Assembly (NCBI RefSeq): GCF_003610195.1
Contig: NZ_RAPO01000002.1
Coordinates: 434,001-498,000 of the forward strand
Origin: Halopiger aswanensis
Lineage (GTDB): Archaea; Halobacteriota; Halobacteria; Halobacteriales; Natrialbaceae
Length of the DNA: 64,000 nt
Direction: 5' to 3'
The notes beneath the pieces are model-generated. The model had not been told where the DNA came from, did not search any database, and worked only from the letters and a program-made list of their open reading frames with translations. The position numbers and the translations under genes are program-made. Positions 3,359-55,998 of this stretch are shown here, one piece after another. The first letter of the stretch is position 1. Each line of letters begins with the position of its first letter.

Positions 3359-5026
3359 ATGCTTCACTCGGTGGGTCCGATGCGCACCGTCGACGTCGGC
3401 GAGCGAACCACGCGCGAAACGTCGATCGACGACCTACTCGAGCGCGTCATCGGTGGCCGAGCAGCGGCAACTGCGCTTGCACACGATCGAATCCCCTTCG
3501 ACGCCGAACCGTTTGGCCCCGAAAACCGAGTCTACCTCTCGACCGGTCCGCTCCAGCAGTCCCGGATGTCCTTCACGGGTCGAATGAACATGACCGGGCT
3601 CTCGCCGCTAACCGACGGACTGCTCTCGGCCAACGCCGGCGGCTACCTCTCGCGCAACTTCGTCGGCACTGGCCTCAGCGTGCTCGAGATCGTCGGTGAG
3701 AGCGACGAATTGCTCGCGATCCACGTACGGGACGACGGCGTGACGTTCGAAGCGGTCCCAGAACTCGAGGGGGCGACGGTTCCCGAGACGTCGGACTACC
3801 TGCGGGAACAGCACGGCCTCGGCCCCGAACACTGCGTTGCGATCGGTCCGGCGGGAGAGAATCGAGTACGGTTCGCGGCGGCGATGACCTACGACTCGCG
3901 GGCCTTCGGTCGGGGCGGCCTGGGCGCGGTGCTGGGCGCGAAGAACGTCAAGTGCGTCACGTTCGAGGGCGACGTCGACCCACCGGTCGAAATTCCGGGT
4001 GCGCCACAGACCGAGATCCACCGCGCGGCGGCGCAATCGGACGACCAGCGGCGACGGCAGGGGACCGCCGGGAGTACGGAGTTCATCAACGACCACTTCT
4101 CGCTGCCCACGCGGTACTTCGCCGAGTCCGAGTTCGAGGGCGCCTCGAGCATCGGCGGCGAGGCGGTCGAGTCGAAGAAGTACGAGAAGGGGGCCTGTTC
4201 GGCCTGCGCCTACGCCTGCAAACTCCCGACGCGGGACGAGGAAACCGGTCTCGAGACCGAGGGGCCGGAGTTCGAGACCGTCTATTCGTTCGGGTCGCTG
4301 CAGGGGGTCGACGACGTCGTCGACGTCATGCGCGCGAACGAACTGTGCGACTCGCTGGGGATGGACACCATCTCGGCGGGCGTCACCGTCGCGGCCTACC
4401 TGGCGAGCGTCGACGAGTTCGGCAACGCAGCACTCGCACAGGAACTGACGGCGAAGATCGCCCGCCGCGAGGGGATCGGCGAGACGCTCGCGGAGGGGCT
4501 CGCCCGCTGTCACGACGACCTCGGCGTCGCGGACTACACGGTCAAAGGCATGGCGCTACCGGCCCACGACGGTCGCGTCCTCCACGGTCAGGGGCTGTCC
4601 TACGCCGTCTCGAACCGCGGTGCCGACCACCTCTACGCCAGCATGCTGTCCCTCGAGTACGGCGGCGAACTCGATCCGCAGGGGACGGTCGGGAAGGCCG
4701 CCCGTCTCGTCCACGAGGAGAACGTGGCCGCGCTGTTCGATACGGGCATCATCTGCGTTTTCGGTCGCGACTACGTCACCGAAGAATACCTCGAGACGCT
4801 GTTCGACGCCGACTACGAGGAGCTGCTCGAGGTGGGCGCGAAGACCGTGCTCCTCGAGCGCCACTTCAACAACCAGCGAGGGTTCGACCGCGAGGACGAT
4901 ACGCTGCCGTACGAGATCCCGGATCTCGAGGCGGCGATCACGGCGTACTACGAGGCGCGGGGGCTGAACGAGGACGGCATCGTACCGGAGTCGCCGCTCG
5001 AGGTGCGAATCGATGCGGCTGATTGA
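3359..5026 (+). CDS. Aldehyde:ferredoxin oxidoreductase family (tungsten enzyme)
   Basis: A 555-aa member of the AOR family, tungsten or molybdenum bis-pterin enzymes that oxidise aldehydes (or related carbonyls) to acids with ferredoxin as acceptor. The [4Fe-4S] ligands are visible: C280, C283 and C287 in CSACAYAC, with C466 as the likely fourth. The N-terminal half contains the pterin-binding stretch around GRGGLGAVLGAKNVK and the SFGSLQGVDD segment. Length is somewhat below the roughly 600 aa of classical AORs. The ATG at 3359 is the first plausible start; translation upstream is unlike AOR. Physiological substrate is unknown. The tungstate importer genes at 33-36 kb make tungsten the likely metal (inference). 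Confidence 0.88.
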   Translation: MLHSVGPMRTVDVGERTTRETSIDDLLERVIGGRAAATALAHDRIPFDAEPFGPENRVYLSTGPLQQSRMSFTGRMNMTGLSPLTDGLLSANAGGYLSRNFVGTGLSVLEIVGESDELLAIHVRDDGVTFEAVPELEGATVPETSDYLREQHGLGPEHCVAIGPAGENRVRFAAAMTYDSRAFGRGGLGAVLGAKNVKCVTFEGDVDPPVEIPGAPQTEIHRAAAQSDDQRRRQGTAGSTEFINDHFSLPTRYFAESEFEGASSIGGEAVESKKYEKGACSACAYACKLPTRDEETGLETEGPEFETVYSFGSLQGVDDVVDVMRANELCDSLGMDTISAGVTVAAYLASVDEFGNAALAQELTAKIARREGIGETLAEGLARCHDDLGVADYTVKGMALPAHDGRVLHGQGLSYAVSNRGADHLYASMLSLEYGGELDPQGTVGKAARLVHEENVAALFDTGIICVFGRDYVTEEYLETLFDADYEELLEVGAKTVLLERHFNNQRGFDREDDTLPYEIPDLEAAITAYYEARGLNEDGIVPESPLEVRIDAAD

Positions 5027-43887: not shown

Positions 43888-46365
43888 ATGACGGAACTCG
43901 GAGCGCGGATCGAGGCGGCCACGGAGCGCGTCAACGAGACGGTCGTCGCTCGACCGAGAGCCGTAATTCTGGCCTTCCTGGTGGTCACCGCCGTGTTCGC
44001 GGTCGGTACGACCGCCGTCGAGACGGACACGGGCGCGACCGACTCGTTCACCGAGGGCCTCCCCGAACAGGAAGCGCTCGACTCGGTCAACGAGGAGTTC
44101 CAGGGACCGTTCACCGCGGACGACGAAACGACCCAACTCGTCCACACCGGTTCCGACGTGCTGACTCGCGAGGCGTTGCTCCAAGAGCTACGCATTCTCG
44201 AGCGCGTCGAAGGGGATCCGACCCTACGGATGGAATCTGCGGACGGCCCGGCGACGATTGTCGCGCAAATCATCGACGAAGACGCTAGGACGGCGACCCA
44301 ACAGCGGCGGGTGATCGAATCGGCGTCGGATCGGGAGATCAGACGAGCGGTGCAGGCGGCGGCCGAGGATCCGTCGTTCTCGCGGATCGTCTCGGACGAT
44401 TTCAACGTCGACGAAGCGTCGGCATCCGCCTCGATAACCGTCATCTCCCACGACGTGCCGCCCGAATTCGGCGACGACGACGTGACGGAACTGCAGACGG
44501 AGATCGAGTCGATCGCGAACGAGGAAGCGACGGACGTTCGCGTCTTCGGCGGCGGCGTCATCGATCAGGAGTTCGAGAGCATCATCGGGGATTCGATGGC
44601 CATCGTGATGCCCGTCGTCGTCGTCCTCCTGCTCGCGTTTCTCGTCGTGGCCTACCGCGATCCGATCGACCTCGCGCTCGGCCTCGTTGCCTTGCTGATG
44701 ACGGTCGTCTGGACGTTCGGGTTCCTCGGCTTCTCCGGGATTCCGTTCGGACAGATGATGATCGCCGTGCCGGTCCTGCTGTTGGCGGTCGGTGTCGACT
44801 TCGGAATCCATATCATCAACCGCTACCGTGAGGAGACGGTCCAGGGATACGAACCGATCCCGGCGATGCGAACCGCGAACAATCAGCTGATGATCGCGTT
44901 CATCATCGTCACCGCGACGACCGTGTTCGGATTCGGTGCGAACGTCATCTCAGACCTCGATCCGATTCGAAACATGGGCATCGCCTCGTCGGTCGGTATC
45001 ACGTTTACGTTCCTCATCTTCGGATTCTTCCTCCCCGCGGCGAAACTCGAGACCGACCGACTCCGGGATCACTACGGCGTTCCGGAGTTCAACTCTTCGC
45101 CGATCGCATCCGACGACTCGGCCTTCGGACGGATCCTGGCGGTGCCCGCGACGGTGAGCCAACATGCACCCGTCGTCTTCGTCATCGTCTTGCTCTTGCT
45201 CGGAGCCGGCATGGGCGTCTACGGCATGGGCGTCGACACCTCCTTCGAGCAAGCGGACTTCCTTCCACCGGAGGACCAACCCGGGTACGTCGAATACATT
45301 CCCGAACCGTTTGCCCCCGGTGAGTACACCGTCACGGAGACACTCAACCTGCTCGAGGATCGCTTCGAAGCGAACCAAGACGAGACGCTAACACTGTACG
45401 TCGAAGGGCCATTCGAGGAATCCCACGCGCTCGAGGCGCTCGCGAAGCCCAACGACGACCCGCCGGAGAGCGTAGCGGTCGGTGACGGCGGGCAGGCCGA
45501 GGCACAGAGCATCGTGACGGTCATCCAGTCGTACACCCAGCAGGACGACGAGTTCGCTGCCCTCGTCGCTCGAAACGATGAGGATGGAGATGGGATCCCG
45601 GATCGTAACCTCGATCGGATCTACGACGAACTGTTCGCGTCGCCCGCGGGTTCGCAGGCGGCCCAGTACCTCACGGAGGACCGCCGAAGCGCGAAGATCG
45701 AGTACTCGGTCGACGCCGAGGCGTCCCAGCAGGAAGTAGCGGCCGACGGCGCCCAGTTCGCCGACCGCTTCCGCTACAGCGCGACTGCCACGGGAACGAT
45801 AGTAGTCTTCGACGCCGTGACAACCGTCATCTTCGAGTCAGCAGTTCAGGGTCTCGTACTCGCGGTCGGACTGACCGCGGTGTTTCTCGTCCTCTCGTAC
45901 GCCATTCTCGAGGGGCGACCGCTGTTGGGGATCGTCAACGTGTTTCCGATCGCGATCTCCGTGGCGGCGCTGATCGGAACCATGCGGTTGCTCGGGATGT
46001 CGCTGAACGCATTAACGGCGACGATCCTGTCGATATCGATCGGCCTCGGGATCGCCTACTCCGTCCACACGACCGCCCGGTTCATCGACGAGTACGATGG
46101 ATACGATCGGATTCAGGACGCGCTCACGACGACGCTCTCGGGAACCGGCGGGGCGCTTGCGGGGAGCATGCTCACGACGTCGATCGGGACGGGCGCGCTC
46201 GCACTCGCCATTACGCCGGTGCTCGGCGACTTCGGCCTGCTCATGGCCATCAGCGTGTTCTATTCGTTTGTCACCTCGATTGTCGCGCTCCCCCCTGCGT
46301 TCTACCTCTGGGGACGATTCGACGAGGCTGATCTCGGTTACAATTGGCTACTCCAACGAGCCTAA
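43888..46365 (+). CDS. RND/MMPL-family exporter, module 1
   Basis: An 825-aa RND superfamily (MMPL-like, HAE3-type) exporter with 12 predicted transmembrane segments in two halves. Segment 1 is VILAFLVVTAVFAVGTTAV; after a large outer loop, the first half has VVVLLLAFLVVAYRDPIDLALGLVALLM and GVDFGIHIINRYREE, the conserved RND Asp-containing helix; the second half repeats this with LSISIGLGIAYSVHTTARFIDEY. It begins in contact with the stop of the CARDB-like gene and is cotranscribed. It would use proton flux to export lipids or hydrophobic compounds; no substrate can be inferred. A closely similar paralogue is at 48223-50883. Confidence 0.92.
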   Translation: MTELGARIEAATERVNETVVARPRAVILAFLVVTAVFAVGTTAVETDTGATDSFTEGLPEQEALDSVNEEFQGPFTADDETTQLVHTGSDVLTREALLQELRILERVEGDPTLRMESADGPATIVAQIIDEDARTATQQRRVIESASDREIRRAVQAAAEDPSFSRIVSDDFNVDEASASASITVISHDVPPEFGDDDVTELQTEIESIANEEATDVRVFGGGVIDQEFESIIGDSMAIVMPVVVVLLLAFLVVAYRDPIDLALGLVALLMTVVWTFGFLGFSGIPFGQMMIAVPVLLLAVGVDFGIHIINRYREETVQGYEPIPAMRTANNQLMIAFIIVTATTVFGFGANVISDLDPIRNMGIASSVGITFTFLIFGFFLPAAKLETDRLRDHYGVPEFNSSPIASDDSAFGRILAVPATVSQHAPVVFVIVLLLLGAGMGVYGMGVDTSFEQADFLPPEDQPGYVEYIPEPFAPGEYTVTETLNLLEDRFEANQDETLTLYVEGPFEESHALEALAKPNDDPPESVAVGDGGQAEAQSIVTVIQSYTQQDDEFAALVARNDEDGDGIPDRNLDRIYDELFASPAGSQAAQYLTEDRRSAKIEYSVDAEASQQEVAADGAQFADRFRYSATATGTIVVFDAVTTVIFESAVQGLVLAVGLTAVFLVLSYAILEGRPLLGIVNVFPIAISVAALIGTMRLLGMSLNALTATILSISIGLGIAYSVHTTARFIDEYDGYDRIQDALTTTLSGTGGALAGSMLTTSIGTGALALAITPVLGDFGLLMAISVFYSFVTSIVALPPAFYLWGRFDEADLGYNWLLQRA

Positions 46366-46369
46366 CGGC

Positions 46370-46385
46370 GGCGCAGTTTTGCGCC
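46370..46385 (+). terminator. Stem-loop after RND module 1
   Basis: GGCGCA GTTT TGCGCC, a perfect 6-bp stem with a 4-nt loop, starts 5 bp after the RND stop codon. It could mark the end of module 1. T content downstream is only moderate. Confidence 0.3.
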
Positions 46386-46488
46386 TTGCGGCGGAGTTTT
46401 CGATAAATTCGCTTTCCGATGCAAGTCACGATCAGTTTGCCTTCGGTAGTTGTAGCCTTCGTCTCGTCAGCTACTCCCCGCCCGTTTT

Positions 46489-46506
46489 TGATTGAACGTT
46501 CAATCA
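46489..46506. promoter_or_regulatory. Perfect 18-bp palindrome, candidate TetR operator
   Basis: TGATTGAACGTTCAATCA is a perfect palindrome, 120 bp before the module 2 CARDB-like start, with an ATTATAT TATA-like element a few bases downstream. Size and symmetry match TetR-type operators. The only TetR gene nearby is 41356-41967. Confidence 0.6.
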
Positions 46507-46626
46507 GAACCATTATATCCGACGCGTCAATATATCGGTTAATGAGTAGTTACAGAGCGGCGAATCGAGGAGACTGGTTAGAGAGATGTCATTTAATCCA
46601 GTCGAGTGAGATTGGTTGGTGGAACG

Positions 46627-48213
46627 ATGACTAGTCGAAAGCACGGAGCGGTGTTGATAGTCGTCTTCCTCACTGTTGCCGGGATGGGGCTCCCAACGAT
46701 TGTCAGTGCGGCCGAAGTCGGCGAGCCGAACCTTTCGGTGTACGCACCGGACAATGAGATTCAACCCGGAACCGAGAACAGTATCAATCTCAAGATCAAG
46801 AACGATGCGGAACTGAAAGCCGGAAGTGACTCCCGGATGCTGACGGCGAACGGCGTCACCGTCGAACTCGAGGATACCGGGCCGTTCGAGGCAAAATCAG
46901 CTGAAACGCCGGTTGGGCCGATACAAGACGGCCAGCTGGTCGAGGTCCCACAGCGGATCGAAGTGCCGGATGACGTCGAACCCGGAAAGTACGAGGTGAC
47001 GGTCCGAGTTCGGTACTCACACTGGAACCGGATTTCCGATCTAGAGCGACAGACAGAGAGCAAAAAGTACGATGTCACGCTCGTTGTGCCCGACGAACCG
47101 CGCTTCGACGTGGCTACCGTCAAAAGCGATGTCGAACCCGGAGCGAGCGGCGAGGCGACGATCGAAATCACCAACACGGGAACCGAACGAGCGAACGAGA
47201 CTCGAGCGACCATTTCCGGCGGCACCGGCGTCACGGTCGACGGCGCGACCGCCGAGGCGCCAGCACAGGAAGCGATCGGCGACCTCGAACCGGGTGAGAC
47301 GACGACGACGACGATCGACGTCACGCTCGCCAAGTCGATAAGCGTCGGCGAGAAGCCGATCGAAGTCGGCTTCACGTACCGCGATACTGCGGGTATCGAA
47401 CGAGAAGCTCCCGTTGAGATCACCACCCTCACTCCGGCTCCCGAACAGTCCTTCTCGATTGCTACCCTCGAGGACACCCTCTCGGTCGGGTACGAGGGCG
47501 AAATCTCGGGCGAGATCACCAACGACGGGCCGCGATCGATCGACGACGCCGTACTGGTCGTCGAACCGATGAGCGAATCGCTGTTCATCGAGGACACTCG
47601 CTACGCTCTTCCGACGCTCAAGCCCGGTGAAACGGCGTCGTTCCGGTATCCGACTGACGTCAGCGGTCAGGCTGATGCCGGGCCTCGACAGCTCCAGTTC
47701 TCCGTCGAGTACACCGGGCCGAGCGGCGAGGCAACCCTTTCCGACGGACCGATGAGCAAGCGCGTCGTCGTCGACGAACGTCAGGACGAGTTTTCGATCG
47801 CTGACGATGGTGTTACCGTCCAGCAGGGGAAAACCACCGAGTTTGCACTCACGATCACCAACGAACGCGACCAGACGCTGTCGAACATCGACGCTCGACT
47901 GTACGCTGACAGTCCGCTCTCGACGAACAACGACGAGGCGTTCGTCCCCGAACTCGAGCCCGGCGAGTCCGCCGAGATCACCTTCGATATTTCGGCGAGC
48001 AGCGCCGCTGCGACCGAACTGCATCCAGTCGAACTCGACTTCGAGTACGAGACCGAACGCGGCGAGTCGACGCTCTCGGACGTTTATCAGCACCCGATCG
48101 AGGTCGTCCCCGCCGAGTCTGACGGCGGCGGATTCCTCGGATCGCTCGCCCCCGCGATGTTCGGCCTAACGATCGTCGGCCTCGGCGGCGTCGCGTGGTG
48201 GCGTCGGACGTGA
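46627..48213 (+). CDS. Secreted CARDB/COG1361-type repeat protein, module 2
   Basis: A 528-aa paralogue of the protein at 42259-43887. It has a signal peptide (KHGAVLIVVFLTVAGMGLPTIVSA), several CARDB-like beta repeats (ENSINLKIKNDAELKAGSD, SGEATIEITNTGTERANE, KTTEFALTITNERDQTLSNIDA), and a C-terminal transmembrane helix (LAPAMFGLTIVGLGGVAWW) followed by RRT. Shared blocks with module 1 include an NDEAFVPELEPGESAEITF stretch matching DDEAFVKELEPGETATMTF. The ATG at 46627 has GGTTGGTGG just before it and is preferred over the GTG at 46606. The RND gene follows after 9 bp. Same inferred role as in module 1. Confidence 0.85.
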   Translation: MTSRKHGAVLIVVFLTVAGMGLPTIVSAAEVGEPNLSVYAPDNEIQPGTENSINLKIKNDAELKAGSDSRMLTANGVTVELEDTGPFEAKSAETPVGPIQDGQLVEVPQRIEVPDDVEPGKYEVTVRVRYSHWNRISDLERQTESKKYDVTLVVPDEPRFDVATVKSDVEPGASGEATIEITNTGTERANETRATISGGTGVTVDGATAEAPAQEAIGDLEPGETTTTTIDVTLAKSISVGEKPIEVGFTYRDTAGIEREAPVEITTLTPAPEQSFSIATLEDTLSVGYEGEISGEITNDGPRSIDDAVLVVEPMSESLFIEDTRYALPTLKPGETASFRYPTDVSGQADAGPRQLQFSVEYTGPSGEATLSDGPMSKRVVVDERQDEFSIADDGVTVQQGKTTEFALTITNERDQTLSNIDARLYADSPLSTNNDEAFVPELEPGESAEITFDISASSAAATELHPVELDFEYETERGESTLSDVYQHPIEVVPAESDGGGFLGSLAPAMFGLTIVGLGGVAWWRRT

Positions 48214-48222
48214 TCACGACCG

Positions 48223-50883
48223 ATGACTGACGACGGCACCGCCGACGAGTCCGACCCGCGTCGCGCCGAAGAGCGTTCGAACGACGCGGACGGGAGTGGC
48301 ATCTTCGGCCTCGATTTCGATCTTGATCTCGGCTTCGGAGGCGATGCTGAGACCGACGACGGAACCAGTCGCTTCCGCGGCGACCGCGCGGACGATACCG
48401 ACGGGGAACTGGGCGACGACCCGTTCACGCGCCGGGTCAACCCGCTGATCACGAACCGACCCTGGACCGTCGTGATCGCCTTCCTGCTGGTGACGGCCCT
48501 CTTCCTCGGCGGCGCCGCCGCGGGCGGCGGCGGACAGGAAGCCGGTACCGACCAGTTTACCGAGGACACCGAGGCCCAGGAGGCCTACGAGAACATGCAG
48601 GAGGACTTCAATCGCGGTAGCCGCGATTCCGGGGGCACGACCGCGCAGTTGTTTCTCACGGCCGACCGCAACGCGATCTCGAAACCGAACCTGGTGCGGC
48701 TGCTCGAGTTCCAGGATCGGATCGAGAACGACGCCGGTCTGCGGGTCGCGTCGTCGACCAGTCCGGCCTCACTGATCGCGACCCAACTCGATCCCGAGGC
48801 GACGACCCGCGAGGAACAACGTCGGGCCGTCGAACGGGCCTCCGAACGGCAACTCGAGGAGGCAGTTGCAACGGCCGACGAAACGATGGGGCTGCCGGTG
48901 AGTACCGACTTTACGCGCGAATCGGCGGCCGCTGACGTCGCGCAAGTGGCGATCACGTACGATACGCCGTCGAACGCGGATACCGACGATCACGCAGCGC
49001 TTATCCGCGAGACGGAAGCCGTCGCGAACGAGATCGACGGCTTCGATTCGGACGACAACATCGTCGTCTTCGGTAGCGCCATCACCGAGCAGGAGACGCT
49101 GCAGTTGCTCGGCGACACGGCGATCGTCGTCTTCCCGGCGGCGCTGATTCTCATTCTACTATTTTTGATCATCGCCTACCGGGATCCGATCGACCTCACC
49201 CTCGGGCTCGTCGCGCTCCTCATGTCGATGATCTGGACGTTCGGCTTCATGGGATTTGCGGGAATTCCCTTCTCCGACTCGCTACTGACCGTCTTCCCCT
49301 TACTGCTAGCAGTGGGGATCGACTTCGGGATCCACATCATCAACCGCTACCGCGAGGAGCGGTCGACGGGCGCACCGATCGGTGACGCGATGGGCATCAC
49401 GACCCGTCAGCTCACGACCGCGCTGTTGATCGTCACCCTCACGACGGTCTTCGGCTTCGCGGCGAACCTGACCAGCGAGATGACCCAGGACTTCGGGATC
49501 GTCGCCGCGGCCGGGATCAGCTTCACGTTCCTCATCTTCGGGGTCTTCCTCCCTGCGGGGAAGGTCGGGCTCGACCGGCTTCGCGAGGGAACGCGGTTCC
49601 CGTCGTTCGGAACCGAGCCGCTGGGGAGCGAGGAGTCGCGGCTCGGACGGGTGCTCCCCGTCGGCGTGCACATTGCACGCGTCATCCCCGTCGTCTTCCT
49701 CGTTGCGATGCTCGTGTTCGGAGCCGGCGCCGCCGCGTACGGAACCGGTGTCAGCACGCAGTTCGATCAGGAGGCGTTCTTCCCCGACGAGAATCGCCTC
49801 GAGCAGTACGAGTCTCTGCCCGGGCCGCTCGCTCCGTCGGAGTATACCTTCATCACTGTCCTCGACATCATGGAGGAAGACTTCGATCAGGGGATGCAAG
49901 GCTCGGTGACGATTTACGTCGATGATCCGGCGTTGCGTGACGACGGCGCGCTCAGAGAAATCGACCGCACGCTCGAGAAGCCGCCGGACGCATTCAAGAC
50001 GGACGGCCGCCAGGCCGACGCGACCAGCATCCTCGACGTGATCGACGAGCAGGCCGCGGCGAACCCGGAGTTTGCAGGGACGGTCAAGCGGTACGATAGC
50101 ACTGGCGACGGAGTTCCGGATCGAGACGTCGACGCAGTCTACGACAAGATGTTCGCCGTCGCCGAGGACGAGACGGCCAATCGCCTGACCACCGACCGCA
50201 GCGCGACGCGGATCGACATTCAGGTTGAGGCCGACGCCGAGCAGGCGGAAGCCGTCGCTGCCGCACGCGAGGTCGCCGACCGCATGGGAATGGACGCGAC
50301 CGCGACCGGCCAACTGGTTATCTTCGAAAGCGTCGTCGAGAAGATCGGCGACTCGGCGATCACTAGCCTCTTCGTTGCATTCCTGCTGACGATCGTCCTG
50401 CTCGTCCTCTCGTACTGGTGGCTCGAGGGGCGAGCGATCTACGGCGTGATTAACCTCGTACCGGTGTTGCTGGCCGTCGCGATGCTCGCGGGCTCGATGC
50501 GGTACTTCGACGTGCCGTTGAGCCCGATCAACGCGCCGATCCTCTCGGTTTCGATCGGGTTGGGCGTCGACTACACGGTGCACCTCATGCATCGGTTCGT
50601 CGACGAGTACGAGGAACGGGGCGACGTCGACGAGGCGCTGATGGTGACCGTCCGCGGAACCGGCGGTGCCCTCACCGGGAGCATGCTCACGACCGTCTGC
50701 GGGCTCGGTGTGCTGTACTTCGCGCTGATCCCGCTGATCATGGAGTTCGGTCTCCTGCTGGCGCTAGGAGTCTTCTACTCCTGGCTCACCTCCATCATCG
50801 TGCTTCCCTCGGTGATCGTCGTCTGGGACCGCCTCGAGGCAAAGTACGGAAGGCTTTCGATCGGGCGGCTCGTCCCCGAATAA
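48223..50883 (+). CDS. RND/MMPL-family exporter, module 2
   Basis: An 886-aa paralogue of the exporter at 43888-46365. It carries an extra acidic N-terminus of about 75 residues (SNDADGSGIFGLDFDLDLGFGG...) before segment 1 (WTVVIAFLLVTALFLGGAAAG). Matching core blocks are FLIIAYRDPIDLTLGLVALL, VGIDFGIHIINRYREE and LSVSIGLGVDYTVHLMHRFVDEY. It has 12 predicted transmembrane segments in two halves, and would function with the module 2 CARDB-like protein. The acidic N-tail is cytoplasmic by topology and could be regulatory. The origin-like region begins 92 bp beyond its stop. Confidence 0.92.
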   Translation: MTDDGTADESDPRRAEERSNDADGSGIFGLDFDLDLGFGGDAETDDGTSRFRGDRADDTDGELGDDPFTRRVNPLITNRPWTVVIAFLLVTALFLGGAAAGGGGQEAGTDQFTEDTEAQEAYENMQEDFNRGSRDSGGTTAQLFLTADRNAISKPNLVRLLEFQDRIENDAGLRVASSTSPASLIATQLDPEATTREEQRRAVERASERQLEEAVATADETMGLPVSTDFTRESAAADVAQVAITYDTPSNADTDDHAALIRETEAVANEIDGFDSDDNIVVFGSAITEQETLQLLGDTAIVVFPAALILILLFLIIAYRDPIDLTLGLVALLMSMIWTFGFMGFAGIPFSDSLLTVFPLLLAVGIDFGIHIINRYREERSTGAPIGDAMGITTRQLTTALLIVTLTTVFGFAANLTSEMTQDFGIVAAAGISFTFLIFGVFLPAGKVGLDRLREGTRFPSFGTEPLGSEESRLGRVLPVGVHIARVIPVVFLVAMLVFGAGAAAYGTGVSTQFDQEAFFPDENRLEQYESLPGPLAPSEYTFITVLDIMEEDFDQGMQGSVTIYVDDPALRDDGALREIDRTLEKPPDAFKTDGRQADATSILDVIDEQAAANPEFAGTVKRYDSTGDGVPDRDVDAVYDKMFAVAEDETANRLTTDRSATRIDIQVEADAEQAEAVAAAREVADRMGMDATATGQLVIFESVVEKIGDSAITSLFVAFLLTIVLLVLSYWWLEGRAIYGVINLVPVLLAVAMLAGSMRYFDVPLSPINAPILSVSIGLGVDYTVHLMHRFVDEYEERGDVDEALMVTVRGTGGALTGSMLTTVCGLGVLYFALIPLIMEFGLLLALGVFYSWLTSIIVLPSVIVVWDRLEAKYGRLSIGRLVPE

Positions 50884-50977
50884 GGTGGTCGACGACGGTG
50901 GACCGCTTCCACCGTCGACGGTCGTACGGTAACCTGACTGGATCCCCAGGGTGAAACAGCTCCCCCTCGAGGGTGGG

Positions 50978-50994
50978 AGTAGATTTCGTGTGCT
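50978..50994 (+). repeat. ORB-like element 1
   Basis: AGTAGATTTCGTGTGCT, preceded by GGTGGG. Identical to elements 2, 3 and (inverted) 4. Flanking GGGAG...CTCCC also makes the ends of this copy symmetric. Confidence 0.85.
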
Positions 50995-51119
50995 CCCGCT
51001 CGCGTGACTGGACACGGGTCGGTCGCCCACGAGTACGAGGAGACGTCGGATCGGACACGGGTGGCTGCGAGAGCGAGAATCGATTGCGGCTCGAAGCAAA
51101 CCGAGCGGAACTGTGGGAG

Positions 51120-51136
51120 AGTAGATTTCGTGTGCT
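51120..51136 (+). repeat. ORB-like element 2
   Basis: AGTAGATTTCGTGTGCT, preceded by GTGGGAG. Exact match to element 1 over 17 bp; 142 bp downstream of it in the same orientation. Confidence 0.85.
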
Positions 51137-51303
51137 TTCGGGAGTCCCGGAGACCAGCCGACACTGACGGCTCACTCCTGATCCGACAGCAAAATCGATA
51201 ACACCATACCGGCGAGCGAACACCACACGGACGACAGACTACTGGACCGACGAAACACCACTCCAACTTCGGGGTTTTGCAAGTGTGGAGAGCAGAGACG
51301 GAG

Positions 51304-51320
51304 AGTAGATTTCGTGTGCT
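51304..51320 (+). repeat. ORB-like element 3
   Basis: AGTAGATTTCGTGTGCT, preceded by GACGGAG. The copy sits between inverted arms ACGGAG (51298-51303) and CTCCGT (51319-51324). 132 bp before the orc1 ATG. Confidence 0.85.
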
Positions 51321-51374
51321 CCGTTCTCACGACCGGGCACAGTATCTCTGTTTGCGTCGGTATTCCTGACGTAT

Positions 51375-51430
51375 TACTAGAACGAATCCAAGCACACGAA
51401 ACAGACGAAAGCAGGTTTTAAGTTCTAGTA
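51375..51430. promoter_or_regulatory. Inverted repeat and degenerate ORB in the orc1 promoter
   Basis: TACTAGAAC (51375-51383) and GTTCTAGTA (51422-51430) are perfect inverted 9-mers, and matches continue with small mismatches outside. Between them lie AGCACACGAAA (51391-51401), 11 bases of the ORB core inverted, and a TTTTAAG TATA-like stretch. This could let Orc1 repress its own gene or form a hairpin at the unwinding site. Confidence 0.5.
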
Positions 51431-51451
51431 GTAACCAGTCGTCAGTACCGA

Positions 51452-52648
51452 ATGTCTGGACCGTTTAGCGATCTTACGGACACTCTCTTTGCCGATAAGT
51501 CGGTCCTCAGTGAGAGCTATCAGCCCGAGGAGATCCTCGAGCGCGACGAGGAAATCGAGGCGTTCAGTCACGCGCTCCAGGACGTCCTCTTCGGTCGCGA
51601 ACCCGAGAACATCTTCCTCTACGGGAAAGCCGGCCTCGGAAAGACGGCCGTCACGAAGTATATGATGGGCGAACTGCAGTCAGAAGTCGTCGAACGGGAG
51701 GCGGCGGACGACCTTCACGTTCACGAGATCAACTGCAACGGAAAGACGCTGTTCATGGTCGTCCGGCGGCTCGTCAACGAGTTATTACCCGCCGACGCGA
51801 GTCAGTTTCCGAAACGCGGGCTCGGGACCGGCGACGCCTTCGACGAACTCTACGCGCAACTCGATCGGATCGGCGGCACGCACCTGATCGTCTTCGACGA
51901 GATCGACCACCTCGACGACGTCGATACGTTGCTCTACGAACTGCCGCGGGCGCGGTCGAACGGCCACATTACGGAGTCGCTGGTCGGGATCATCGGCATC
52001 AGCAACAACTACACGTTCCGACAGTCGCTGTCGGCGAAGGTCAAGGATACCCTCATGGAGACCGAGATTTCGTTCAGTCCCTACGATGCCGGCGAACTCC
52101 GGACGATTCTCCACGATCGCGCCGAGCGGGCGTTCGTCGACGGCGCCTGCGACGAATCCGCGATCGCGAAGGCGGCGGCGCTTTCGGCACAGGACATGGG
52201 GAACGCTCGCCAGGCGATCGACCTCCTCCGCGTCGGTGCCGAGGTCGCCGAACGCGAGGGCGACGAGACTGTCACCGACGACCACATCGAGGACGCGCGC
52301 ACCCTCGTCCAGCGTGGCCGACTGCGAAACAAGATCCGCGACCAGACCGAACACGCCCAGTACATCCTCGAGACGATCGCGAAACTCGAGGAACGGAACG
52401 AGGTACCGGCCCGCTCGAAGGAGATCCAGGAGGGGTACGAGCGGGTCGCCGAAGCCTACGGCGCGACGCCGTTGACGACGCTAAAGAGCATTCAGGACCA
52501 CCTTTCCGATCTGCACATGTTGGGGTTCCTCGTACGTCACGAGCGCAACAAGGGACTCAGCGGCGGCCAGTACTACGAGTACGAACTGGATCTGGATCCG
52601 ATGATCGTCCTCGAGACGAGAGAGGAGATCGTACAGGCGGCCGACTGA
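51452..52648 (+). CDS. orc1: Orc1/Cdc6 replication initiator
   Basis: A 398-aa AAA+ initiator. Walker A is YGKAGLGKTAV, Walker B LIVFDEIDHLDD, sensor 1 IIGISNN, and the sensor 2 region is DMGNARQAIDLLRVGAEVAEREG; the C-terminal winged helix (about residues 300-398) contains EIQEGYERVAEAYGATPLTTLKSIQDHLSDLHMLGF. It binds origin repeats, melts DNA and loads MCM. The gene stands between arrays of identical 17-bp elements pointing toward it from both sides, so it is probably the cognate initiator of this origin. Haloarchaea carry several orc genes; which family this is would need comparison. ATG at 51452. Confidence 0.95.
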   Translation: MSGPFSDLTDTLFADKSVLSESYQPEEILERDEEIEAFSHALQDVLFGREPENIFLYGKAGLGKTAVTKYMMGELQSEVVEREAADDLHVHEINCNGKTLFMVVRRLVNELLPADASQFPKRGLGTGDAFDELYAQLDRIGGTHLIVFDEIDHLDDVDTLLYELPRARSNGHITESLVGIIGISNNYTFRQSLSAKVKDTLMETEISFSPYDAGELRTILHDRAERAFVDGACDESAIAKAAALSAQDMGNARQAIDLLRVGAEVAEREGDETVTDDHIEDARTLVQRGRLRNKIRDQTEHAQYILETIAKLEERNEVPARSKEIQEGYERVAEAYGATPLTTLKSIQDHLSDLHMLGFLVRHERNKGLSGGQYYEYELDLDPMIVLETREEIVQAAD

Positions 52649-52678
52649 ACGGCGGGAGTTTCGGTCGGCTGCCCGTTC

Positions 52679-52747
52679 CTCATACCTGTTCTCCATACCC
52701 GAACTCCATATCTCTATACCCGCACTCCATACCCGTGCTCGTACCCG
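52679..52747 (+). repeat. Degenerate CTCCATACCCG direct repeats
   Basis: About six units with a period of roughly 11-13 bp: CTCATACCTG, CTCCATACCCG (52691), CTCCATATC, TCTATACCCG, CTCCATACCCG (52725), CTCGTACCCG. One edge lies 31 bp after the orc1 stop and the other 17 bp before ORB-like element 4. Confidence 0.75.
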
Positions 52748-52763
52748 ATTCGGGCATGACAAA

Positions 52764-52780
52764 AGCACACGAAATCTACT
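52764..52780 (-). repeat. ORB-like element 4 (inverted)
   Basis: AGCACACGAAATCTACT on the plus strand, the exact reverse complement of elements 1-3. The G-rich flank is retained on the minus strand (GGGAGGG). Confidence 0.85.
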
Positions 52781-52843
52781 CCCTCCCAGTGTCGGAGCTC
52801 GGTGCCGGAGTCGTCGACAGTCCGAGTCGGACTCGAGACGGAA

Positions 52844-52860
52844 AGCACACGAAATGTACT
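52844..52860 (-). repeat. ORB-like element 5 (inverted, one mismatch)
   Basis: AGCACACGAAATGTACT on the plus strand; differs from element 4 at one base. The minus-strand G-rich flank (AAGGGAG) is kept. Confidence 0.8.
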
Positions 52861-53007: not shown

Positions 53008-55998
53008 ATGTCAGTCCCGCGCTCCGTCCGTCGATGTTGCCGACGGGAGCCGTCCGACGCTGGCGGACGGTCCGCAGCGTCGACGAAAGCGACCTTCGGG
53101 CCCACCGTGCGATGCGTGTCTGCCGGACAACGGTCCGAACGCGGCACGTGGGCCGGTCTCGGTTTGGGTCCGGGTCTCCTGTACGGCGGCCTCGCAACCG
53201 GGACTCTCGGGCAGATTCAGTGGGGCGAACGCGGTCTCGAGTTATCTCCCGGCGCCGCCGTCGTGATCGGCCTCGTGCTGTTCGCCGGCGTTGGCGCGGC
53301 CGTGCTCTCCCTCACGAGACGGAACAGGCAATTCGAGGAGAGCGACGGTGATCGACTCGAGTCCGAAACCGAGGCCGAGACCGATCCTCCGGCGGTGCTC
53401 ACCGGTGACGCGATCGAAGGAACGCAGGTCGCGCTCCGGCGCGACGACGGCGACTGGCAGTGGCGCGTGCTTCGCCGCGAGGCGCTCGCCGAGAGTCCCA
53501 CACGGGCTTCGACGCAGTCGACGGCGACGGACCGAATCGAACGGACGCGAGACGCGATCGATACTGCCGGGCTCCGGGAAGTAACCGACGCTGCAGTGCG
53601 CGTCTATCGCGACGAGGACGGGATATGGCGATGGACGCTCGTCCGTGCGGACGGCAGCCGCGTTGCCACCGCAGCCGAGGGCTACGACGACCGCGAGAGC
53701 GCTGAAGCGGCAGTGAGTCTCGTCAAAGACTGCGGCCCCGAAGCCGACGTCGTCGATATCGAGGCGGCGGCGATTACGATCGCCACGCACCACGATCGAT
53801 GGCAGTGGCAACTGGTCGACGACGAGCGAAGGCCGCTGGCCACCGGCGCAGACGAGTACGAACGGCGCGCCGACGCCGTAGCTGCCGCCGATACGTTCGT
53901 CGATCGGATCTCGGACGCACGCGTCCTCGACATCGACGCGTTCGGCGTCGAACTCTACGAGACCGGAGCCGTTGTGTCGGGATCAGAGTCGAAATCCGAG
54001 TCCGACGAAGAGTCGGAAGCCGAACCGGGAGAGGAGGAGGAGGACGGCACGTGGGCCTGGCGGCTCGTCGATGAGAACAGCGATATCATCGCCGACGCAC
54101 CCACGACTTTCGAGACTCGACCAGCCGCCGAAGATGCCGCGACGGCGGCGCTCGCGGCCCTCGAGGACGCTGCGGTCACCGACGCGGGAGACCCTGCGTT
54201 CGAACGGTATCCCGATCCCAATATCGACAGTACCGGTGGCGCTGATGCCGGTAGTGACGGCGATGGCTGGCGCTGGCGACTCGTCGACGATGCCGGCCGA
54301 ACCGTCGCTCGAGCGCCGAGGACCGCGTCGACGGCCGACGGGGCCGAACGAGCCACCGAACTGATCCGCGAGGCGGCGCCCGATGCGCCCGTGCTCGAGA
54401 TCGACGAGGCGGCGTACGAGGTGTATGCCGACCCCGATGCCGCGCCGGAAGACGACTCCGTTGCGGACCGCACGAAGGTGGACGCGGATGACGACTCGAG
54501 CAGTGGCGAAAGCGACGCGGCCGAGGAGGCTACCGCCGTCACCGACGGCTCGGGAACCGAGCCGGTCGATGAGGGGTGGCGCTGGCGGCTCGTCACGACC
54601 GAGCGCGATGTCGTTGCCGAGGGCGCGGCGTCATACGGCGACGCGGGGACAGCGACGACGGCGCTCGAGCGAATCCGCGAGGACGCCCGCGAGGCCGACG
54701 TCCTCGCGTTCGAGACGGCCGCATTCCGCGTTTACGAGAACGACGGCGACTGGCGCTGGCGACTGCTCGACGAGGGCGGGACCGTCCTCGCCGACAGCGA
54801 CGGTGAGCACGACTCCCGCAACGAGGCCATCGAGGCGATGCTGACGCTCAAGGAGCGCGCGCCCGACGCCGACGTGGTGGAAATCGATGCGCCCGAATTC
54901 GAACTGGTCGCCGAGGGCGACGGCGAGGGTGACGGCGACGGCGAGGACGCGGAGGGCTGGTCCTGGCGATTGATCGACGCCGCCGGGCGCCGCGTCGCGA
55001 CGGCGCCGACGACCTACGCGAGTCGAGCGGACGCTCGAGCGGCGGTAGATCGCTTCCGGGAGCAGTCGAACGGTTCCATCCACACGGTCGAGAGCGCGAC
55101 GTTCCAGCCCTCCGCGACGGACGATGCGTGGCGCTGGCGACTGATCCGCCCGTCGGGCGAGACGCTGGCGGTCTCCGGAAGCGAGTACGCGACGCGAGAC
55201 GAACTCGACGACCGGATCGACGACGTGCGGGAGACGGCGGCCGCCGCTCGGGCGTATACGACGGGCGCAGTAACGATCCAACTCGTCGGCAGCGAGACCT
55301 GGCGCTGGCGGCTGCTCGATCGCGAGCGCGAGCCGATCCTCGAGTCGACGACGGCCTATCCCAGCCGAGCGGCAGCCCGGGACGCCGTCGACGATCTCGA
55401 GCAGGCCTCGACGTCGGACGTTCCGATCTTCGCGATCGACGCCGGAGCAGCCGCGGTCTGGCTCGAGCAGGCTGCGGACGGCTGGCGCTGGGACCTGATC
55501 GATCGCGACCGGACGGTCCTCGCGACCGCGGCCGACGCGGCCGACAAATCCGGTGCGACGGCGGCCGTCGACGACGTCCAGCGGCTGGCGCCCCTCGCCG
55601 AGCGGATCGACGTCACCGAGGCGTCGTTCGACATCGTCGAGCGAGACGGCGGCTGGCGCTGGCGGCTCCTCGACGATGACGGCCATCCCGTCGCGATCGG
55701 CGAGGAGGCGACGGCGACGAAAGCGGCTGCGCACGAGGCGATCGACGACGTTCGGTCGCTCCTCGAGGTGGCCAGCGTCTTCGAACTCGAGGGGACCGCG
55801 TTCGAACGGTATCGGACGGACGGGGATGCGGACGCGGACGGCGACGACGAGAACCCGTGGCAGTGGCGACTCGTCGACGGGAACGGTGAGACGTTGCTCG
55901 AGAGCACACAGGCCTACGAAACCCGGGAAGCGACACAAGATGCAATTGCCGCGCTGCAATCGCACGCCACCGACGGCGAGTTGACGGTCGCCGAGTGA
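53008..55998 (+). CDS. Giant multi-repeat YegP/HVO_2922-like (DUF1508) protein
   Basis: A 996-aa protein built of about 13 repeats of 65-80 residues. Each repeat has a WxWRL strand and a following 'D..g..lA....Y..r..A..A' helix block, as in DUF1508/YegP/HVO_2922 small proteins. WxWxL-like motifs are GDWQWRVL, GIWRWTLV, DRWQWQLV, GTWAWRLV, DGWRWRLV, EGWRWRLV, GDWRWRLL, EGWSWRLI, DAWRWRLI, ETWRWRLL, DGWRWDLI, GGWRWRLL and NPWQWRLV. Residues about 50-105 include two hydrophobic segments (LGPGLLYGGLATGTL and AAVVIGLVLFAGVGAAVLSL), so it is probably membrane-anchored. Function is unknown. A TATA-like CCATTATTA and the lack of a leader support ATG 53008, although the Arg-rich first 45 residues make the start uncertain. 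Confidence 0.85.
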   Translation: MSVPRSVRRCCRREPSDAGGRSAASTKATFGPTVRCVSAGQRSERGTWAGLGLGPGLLYGGLATGTLGQIQWGERGLELSPGAAVVIGLVLFAGVGAAVLSLTRRNRQFEESDGDRLESETEAETDPPAVLTGDAIEGTQVALRRDDGDWQWRVLRREALAESPTRASTQSTATDRIERTRDAIDTAGLREVTDAAVRVYRDEDGIWRWTLVRADGSRVATAAEGYDDRESAEAAVSLVKDCGPEADVVDIEAAAITIATHHDRWQWQLVDDERRPLATGADEYERRADAVAAADTFVDRISDARVLDIDAFGVELYETGAVVSGSESKSESDEESEAEPGEEEEDGTWAWRLVDENSDIIADAPTTFETRPAAEDAATAALAALEDAAVTDAGDPAFERYPDPNIDSTGGADAGSDGDGWRWRLVDDAGRTVARAPRTASTADGAERATELIREAAPDAPVLEIDEAAYEVYADPDAAPEDDSVADRTKVDADDDSSSGESDAAEEATAVTDGSGTEPVDEGWRWRLVTTERDVVAEGAASYGDAGTATTALERIREDAREADVLAFETAAFRVYENDGDWRWRLLDEGGTVLADSDGEHDSRNEAIEAMLTLKERAPDADVVEIDAPEFELVAEGDGEGDGDGEDAEGWSWRLIDAAGRRVATAPTTYASRADARAAVDRFREQSNGSIHTVESATFQPSATDDAWRWRLIRPSGETLAVSGSEYATRDELDDRIDDVRETAAAARAYTTGAVTIQLVGSETWRWRLLDREREPILESTTAYPSRAAARDAVDDLEQASTSDVPIFAIDAGAAAVWLEQAADGWRWDLIDRDRTVLATAADAADKSGATAAVDDVQRLAPLAERIDVTEASFDIVERDGGWRWRLLDDDGHPVAIGEEATATKAAAHEAIDDVRSLLEVASVFELEGTAFERYRTDGDADADGDDENPWQWRLVDGNGETLLESTQAYETREATQDAIAALQSHATDGELTVAE

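Follow-up and report, generated by a model that had tools for sequence, protein, structure and literature searches.

A predicted Orc1/Cdc6 replicator-initiator cassette of Halopiger aswanensis and the covariation of its boxes with a winged-helix residue among haloarchaea

The stretch of DNA analysed, here called the window, is the 64,000 nt at positions 434001-498000 of contig NZ_RAPO01000002.1 of Halopiger aswanensis (genome 4.87 Mb). On its plus strand at 51452-52648 lies a gene for a protein of 398 aa, hereafter Orc, which the original prediction had rightly taken for orc1: TIGR02928 (E 1e-121), PF22703 and PF09079 all score above their cut-offs, and the AAA+ domain, Cdc6 lid, C-terminal winged helix (wH) and length of more than 300 aa are those of an archaeal Orc1/Cdc6 initiator. 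It does not belong to the oriC1 family, scoring under all ORC1-type equivalog cut-offs, and among phage records there is no close homolog. The best PDB matches of a predicted model (pLDDT 83) are 2QBY and 2V1U, and the model places residues 364-375 between the wing strands 360-363 and 376-379. The proposed specificity positions are residue R122 in the initiator-specific motif (ISM) and L369 in the wing.

Around the gene the 17-mer AGTAGATTTCGTGTGCT occurs five times, four times exactly and once with a single mismatch, three copies lying upstream on the plus strand and two downstream on the minus strand such that every copy faces orc; in number, place and direction the copies are as had been predicted. 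Upstream are the distal ORB copy 1 (50978-50994), ORB copy 2 (51120-51136, full form GGGAGAGTAGATTTCGTGTGCTTTC, the inverted-repeat partner of the downstream copies) and the proximal ORB copy 3 (51304-51320), all of them exact, and the last sits at the position, some 146-152 nt ahead of orc, at which a box is kept in most orthologs. Downstream are ORB copy 4 (52764-52780, exact) and ORB copy 5 (52844-52860, AGTACATTTCGTGTGCT), the single mismatch of the latter falling at a position where C is common among relatives. Repeats arising by chance are ruled out by the five sites, against 0.04 matches expected in the window with up to three mismatches allowed. The G-rich 5' flank of the original prediction is indeed G/A-rich (GGGAG, GGAGAG), with 2-3 consecutive Gs at the Halopiger aswanensis locus, but departs from the canonical G-string of haloarchaea, in place of which the boxes carry, family-wide, GAGAGT without a G run.

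Between ORB copy 3 and orc the DNA at 51341-51430 is AT-richer, modestly so (58-60% A+T against 32-50% farther upstream, in 50-nt windows), and from its composition is a candidate unwinding region. At 51390-51409 it reads AAGCACACGAAACAGACGAA, the minus strand of which forms two tandem half-sites, TTCGTCTG-TTTCGTGTGCTT, and so a degenerate sixth site; alignment of orthologs finds this double half-site (TTCGTCTGTTTCGTGTGCTT on the minus strand) conserved directly before the putative BRE/TATA-like promoter element of orc, GGTTTTAA (51414-51421, plus strand), which is near-invariant in a 15-sequence alignment. The double half-site was missed by the original prediction, and it and the wing covariation described below go beyond what was observed there. 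Degenerate short direct repeats ATACCCGnACTCC, with spacings of 13 and 21, lie at 52669-52740, past the stop codon of orc and ahead of the downstream boxes. Directly upstream of the predicted origin, at 43888-50883, a NEW3/CARDB-domain protein is encoded between two MMPL/patched-type transporters, and on the other side the origin is adjoined by a gene (53008-55998) for a protein of 996 aa that carries six or more DUF1508 repeats, a 43-45% relative of which stands beside the orc ortholog in two other Halobiforma only.

A cluster of the 17-mer only here had been named as a sign of a dedicated origin, and in a whole-genome scan the orc locus is its sole cluster with no scatter of many copies: the rest of the genome holds one site with two mismatches (C2:924550) and five with three, a reversed control pattern giving two. 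The two-mismatch site, present also in two related genomes, was considered as a second target and rejected, as it falls within a coding sequence judged glutamate-synthase-like by reading its translation. A search of the genome with this Orc gives 18 matches, and around most of the other paralogs a de novo search finds different repeats, for example CACTGTTGCAAGTGAA, CCACTATGTCCGCTGT, GCTTCGGAAACGGTGG and CACTCTGAACGAGGGG, which fits the arrangement of one initiator with one box (PMC3528665) that has been genetically tested in Haloarcula hispanica (PMC3936714). The claim of a distinct initiator-element pair thus holds with respect to the other Orc paralogs of the genome, and in the covariation, but the pair is of a known kind (PMC3528665) and is common to many haloarchaea. 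A thermophile-like wing is present in the genome on another paralog (L021).

Origins adjacent to orc/cdc6 genes in haloarchaea were catalogued by Wu et al. 2012, with boxes on both sides for cdc6E, orc10 and orc8 (PMC3528665), and like these the locus has an orc1/cdc6 gene with flanking inverted repeats and a box belonging to its own Orc family. Inverted box repeats lie in the intergenic regions beside orc and an AT-rich region, if a modest one, lies near or between the boxes, both being features that Wu et al. used as criteria; in contrast the boxes of that catalogue required a G-string (PMC3528665), and the present family has GAGAGT instead. The oriC2-cdc6E locus of H. hispanica likewise has boxes upstream of the initiator gene and a cluster downstream (PMC3936714), although its downstream oriC2D cluster numbers 11 boxes against two here, and the likeness is one of layout. 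In that organism each Cdc6 is origin-specific, and the downstream ORB array of oriC2D restrains initiation, probably by titration (PMC3936714). A more distant analogy, cited in PMC3936714, is with dnaA autoregulation and datA titration in E. coli, where initiator sites likewise lie in the initiator's own promoter with extra sites nearby; the DnaA protein and its boxes are unrelated to this system, and the corresponding role at the window locus is a proposed one.

Orthologs at 70-94% identity are encoded in Halobiforma, Halopenitus, Natrinema, Natronococcus, Halovivax, Halorubrum, Natronomonas, Halococcus, Halobellus, Halogranum, Halobacterium salinarum DSM 3754 and Haloarcula amylolytica, and 72 of 392 genomes of the order have an Orc match at E<=1e-130. 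The flanks of the orthologs bear GAGAGTNNNTTTCGTNTG boxes, which in a re-oriented set face orc in 246 of 262 cases (upstream 130 toward and 8 away, downstream 116 toward and 8 away), a few loci of the two collections in the set being from the same genome. Of 243 genomes 56 have the pattern GAGAGTNNNTTTCGTNTGYT, none having the reversed control, and among the matches listed 102 of the 150 exact sites in those genomes are within 2 kb of an ortholog; some of the matches away from orthologs are box clusters where orc is missing or truncated. The same layout with orthologous Orcs across the haloarchaeal order makes this an initiator/box pair of the kind predicted in 2012 and no isolated novelty. 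The exact box family does not turn up in the body text of the papers searched, where the core sequence gave unrelated matches only. Outside Halobiforma no synteny of flanking genes is seen, and since the neighbour genes are common to other Halobiforma only, orc and its boxes seem to have travelled together as one cassette. In H. salinarum the ortholog (L048, 72% identity) matches no knockout primers of NRC-1 orc1-orc10 (PMC1906834), those of orc10, the Orc type that at 80% identity or more marks the oriCa family, included; by this comparison, made with no positive-control locus, it apparently is none of those ten genes, and NRC-1 may lack the box/Orc family altogether.

Several relatives depart from the complete arrangement. 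Seven fetched stretches (L170, L172, L173, L174, L176, L178 and L179) have box clusters with no orc ortholog, and in Natronococcus jeotgali (L177, 962-1911) a cluster is accompanied only by a 110-aa orc remnant; box clusters of this sort suggest origins that have lost their initiator. In L030/L142 and L153, Halobiforma haloterrestris included, the orc ortholog has an in-frame stop (TAG, TAA) and the boxes are intact. On pHTUR04 of H. turkmenica (L119) boxes of the family at 3629, 3871 and 4067 lack the cognate Orc and are interleaved with boxes of another kind, ACTCGGTACGAGGTGTG, that go with an unrelated Orc (31.7% identity), along with a CACATCGATAGCGGGGTGTC box resembling yet another family, and the locus is either a mosaic origin or a graveyard. 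A sister-clade locus (L155) has an array of 8-base units (CACAAGCG/CACAAGAG) some 11-195 nt after orc. In one assembly (G142:C2) seemingly the same orc and boxes occur near both ends of a 598 kb contig (3882-5000 and 573014-574195), with further box positions matching 20 kb on, pointing to a terminal duplication or an assembly overlap.

The box tail, meaning the two bases that follow TTTCGTNTG, was left free in the search pattern, and it varies with the residue at wing position 369. Across 64 non-redundant Orcs the pairings are L with CT (22), R, Q or K with TT (24), E with TC (15) and R with CT (1), the two others being incompletely scored (one L row with its first base unresolved, and Halogranum, with V and mixed tails). 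The wing rule of L with TGCT, R/Q/K with TGTT and E with TGTC is thus obeyed in 61 of 62 fully scored Orcs (the Orc of the window has L369), and per site holds for 94/96 (L, CT), 64/66 (E, TC) and 91/100 (R and Q, TT). The sole fully scored exception is from Halococcus, with wing R and TGCTA; in the Halococcus loci L045 and L102 the wing is R and the origin boxes end TGCT(A/C), while at the promoter the half-site has the ending TGTTT, in line with the rule. The rule was found from looking at the alignment, so that later loci and the promoter site are its fairer tests: all six non-redundant Orcs fetched once it had been stated obey it, and the promoter half-site follows it in 25/27 (L, CT), 15/17 (E, TC) and 28/35 (R/Q/K, TT). 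Two paralogs of the genome itself with other cores, at 42-43% identity, also fit, L014 having wing R and CTGTT, and L015 wing L and AAGCT. This covariation of residue and base ties the box element to the Orc of the window. The predicted binding of Orc to these boxes has the support of the comparative evidence as a whole.

In structural terms the Orc resembles A. pernix ORC1 bound to its ORB (2V1U) and S. solfataricus Orc1-1/Orc1-3 (2QBY) in fold, domain order and the equivalent of wing position 369, and is likened to these complexes, in which the DNA is contacted in a bipartite manner by the wH and by the AAA+/ISM. L369 aligns with chain residue R357 of 2V1U, which we take to be R369 in the protein's own numbering given the offset of 12 seen between R345/R346 and chain R333/R334; the DNA-proximal arginines of A. 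pernix ORC1 are R345, R346, R367 and R369 (PMC9738581). S. islandicus Orc1-2, which recognises an ANTTTC core, is reported to require the wing pair R381/R383 alone for binding specifically (PMC9738581). The wing residue is Arg in the 2V1U/2QBY systems and Leu here, and their boxes are unrelated to the present ones save in the bipartite plan.

The other half of the box seems to vary with a different part of the protein. A sister clade at around 60% identity bears ACACCCCTCRTTTCGTCTGTTC, with core and tail identical to those of the window family, and in sister clades the C-string CACCCCTC is on the box side where the window family has GAGAGT, which puts a G-string on the opposite strand. ISM position 122 is T in 11/11 scored C-string Orcs and R or K in 75/75 others, an association weaker than the wing rule given how few evolutionary switches underlie it. 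These sequence comparisons suggest a two-part box, its halves read separately by the AAA+/ISM and the wH, and such separate reading agrees with 2V1U, where the ISM is in contact with the G-track (PMC9738581). On balance we lean slightly towards a two-point code, in which wing 369 reads the last two bases (L, CT; R/Q/K, TT; E, TC) and ISM 122, the residue preceding the invariant glycine, selects the other half (T, C-string/G-string; R/K, GAGAGT), by which paralogs would discriminate origins and which would extend beyond the window family.

At the promoter 80 of 103 unique orthologs keep the double half-site with 0-3 mismatches, whereas shuffled upstream controls have 6-10 and mostly 8-9. Overlapping the orc promoter as it does, it implies autoregulation, and Orc may well bind its own promoter for that purpose, or as an inner origin site, or both. 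Overall the locus is probably an archaeal replicator-initiator cassette of Orc1/Cdc6 type, complete in itself, in which Orc would bind the GGGAGAGTAGATTTCGTGTGCT boxes with its winged helix on the TTTCGTGTGCT half, wing L369 reading the final CT, and with its AAA+ domain on the GAGAGT half via the initiator-specific motif around R122-G123-L124. Once Orc had occupied ORB copies 1-3 and the half-sites at the promoter, the AT-rich stretch would melt and MCM could be loaded. The two inward-facing downstream boxes would probably titrate Orc, as oriC2D does in H. hispanica, and Orc at the promoter would probably repress orc and so limit its own synthesis.

As to the direct reading of the box tail by residue 369, the contrary view is that both traits travel with clades, by phylogenetic hitchhiking, which we consider unlikely. 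On an Orc tree from which the wing columns were left out there are ten changes of the tail and eleven of the wing class, and over five independent contrasts on well-supported branches 4.8 on average are concordant and 0.0 opposed; so few contrasts cannot reach p 0.05, the sign test giving no better than about 0.06. Residue 369 shares 6/10 tail changes in a branch co-change count (p 2.5e-4 before correction over 398 columns), and these figures and the Halococcus exception leave the hitchhiking account some room. Against it, residue 369 ranks first of the 398 columns in this count and also in lowering tail entropy (1.49 to 0.10 bits in a 58-Orc subset, the next column reaching 0.40), it is a DNA-proximal position in a solved homologue, and the rule is kept at most promoter sites, in the later Orcs and in the two paralogs.

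Whether the cassette now fires is a separate matter. The predicted origin, well supported in its anatomy, may be dormant: some haloarchaeal origins with boxes are (PMC3528665, PMC4595724), and a dormant or relic origin, with Orc still on its boxes, other origins driving replication and the cassette an inactive passenger, is rather unlikely here. There are documented cases with intact boxes and cdc6 genes (PMC4595724), relatives such as the one with the 110-aa remnant where orc is lost or truncated, and a same-family ortholog with an in-frame stop. The many Orc paralogs of the genome also count against an active origin, as does a G-string that is not in its usual form, the canonical one being essential in H. 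hispanica oriC1 (PMC3936714). The GC skew near the locus, skew having been proposed as a check on the original prediction of a probable origin, gives a weak local minimum of the cumulative curve near 480-485 kb of the contig and a skew step that ranks at the 95th percentile for 50 kb and at the 90th for 100 kb, and so lends weak support to an origin of which the anatomy is that of an archaeal Orc1/Cdc6 type. Yet orc, the five boxes and the promoter site are intact at the locus and in a same-genus genome (98% identity), and boxes and reading residue stay matched across several switches, which implies continued binding. That Orc mainly regulates its own gene, the boxes being operator or titration sites and no origin at all, is very unlikely, even with conserved half-sites abutting the BRE/TATA box and with Saccharolobus Orc1-2 as a non-initiator regulator having an ANTTTC core (PMC9738581), as inverted multi-box arrays beside the gene are typical of origins (PMC3528665) and the genome has no other element cluster to regulate. 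An integrated plasmid or mobile element with surviving iterons, quite unlikely in our estimate, would accord with related Orcs (57-62% identity) on haloarchaeal plasmids and with neighbour genes unshared beyond Halobiforma; this concerns the source of the cassette and not a different function, an origin that came with its own replicon being an origin all the same, and it is compatible with the replicator-initiator cassette as the main explanation.

Haloarchaeal genomes have ten or more Orc1/Cdc6 paralogs, those examined being tied to their own origins, and Orc co-crystal structures have only four or five base-specific contacts (PMC5333045), a setting that raises the question of how paralogs tell origins apart. 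Of the results, the covariation of residue and base has the greatest interest, since with it the discrimination of origins by archaeal initiators can be put directly to the test: in around 100 orthologs a single residue of the wing switches time and again along with two bases, and the effect of mutating it can be asked directly. A feedback loop acting on the level of the initiator is suggested by the half-sites conserved at the promoter, and the GAGAGT version of the box suggests that the G-string half is replaceable. If the two-point code is true, box sequences would be predictable from the Orc protein sequence.
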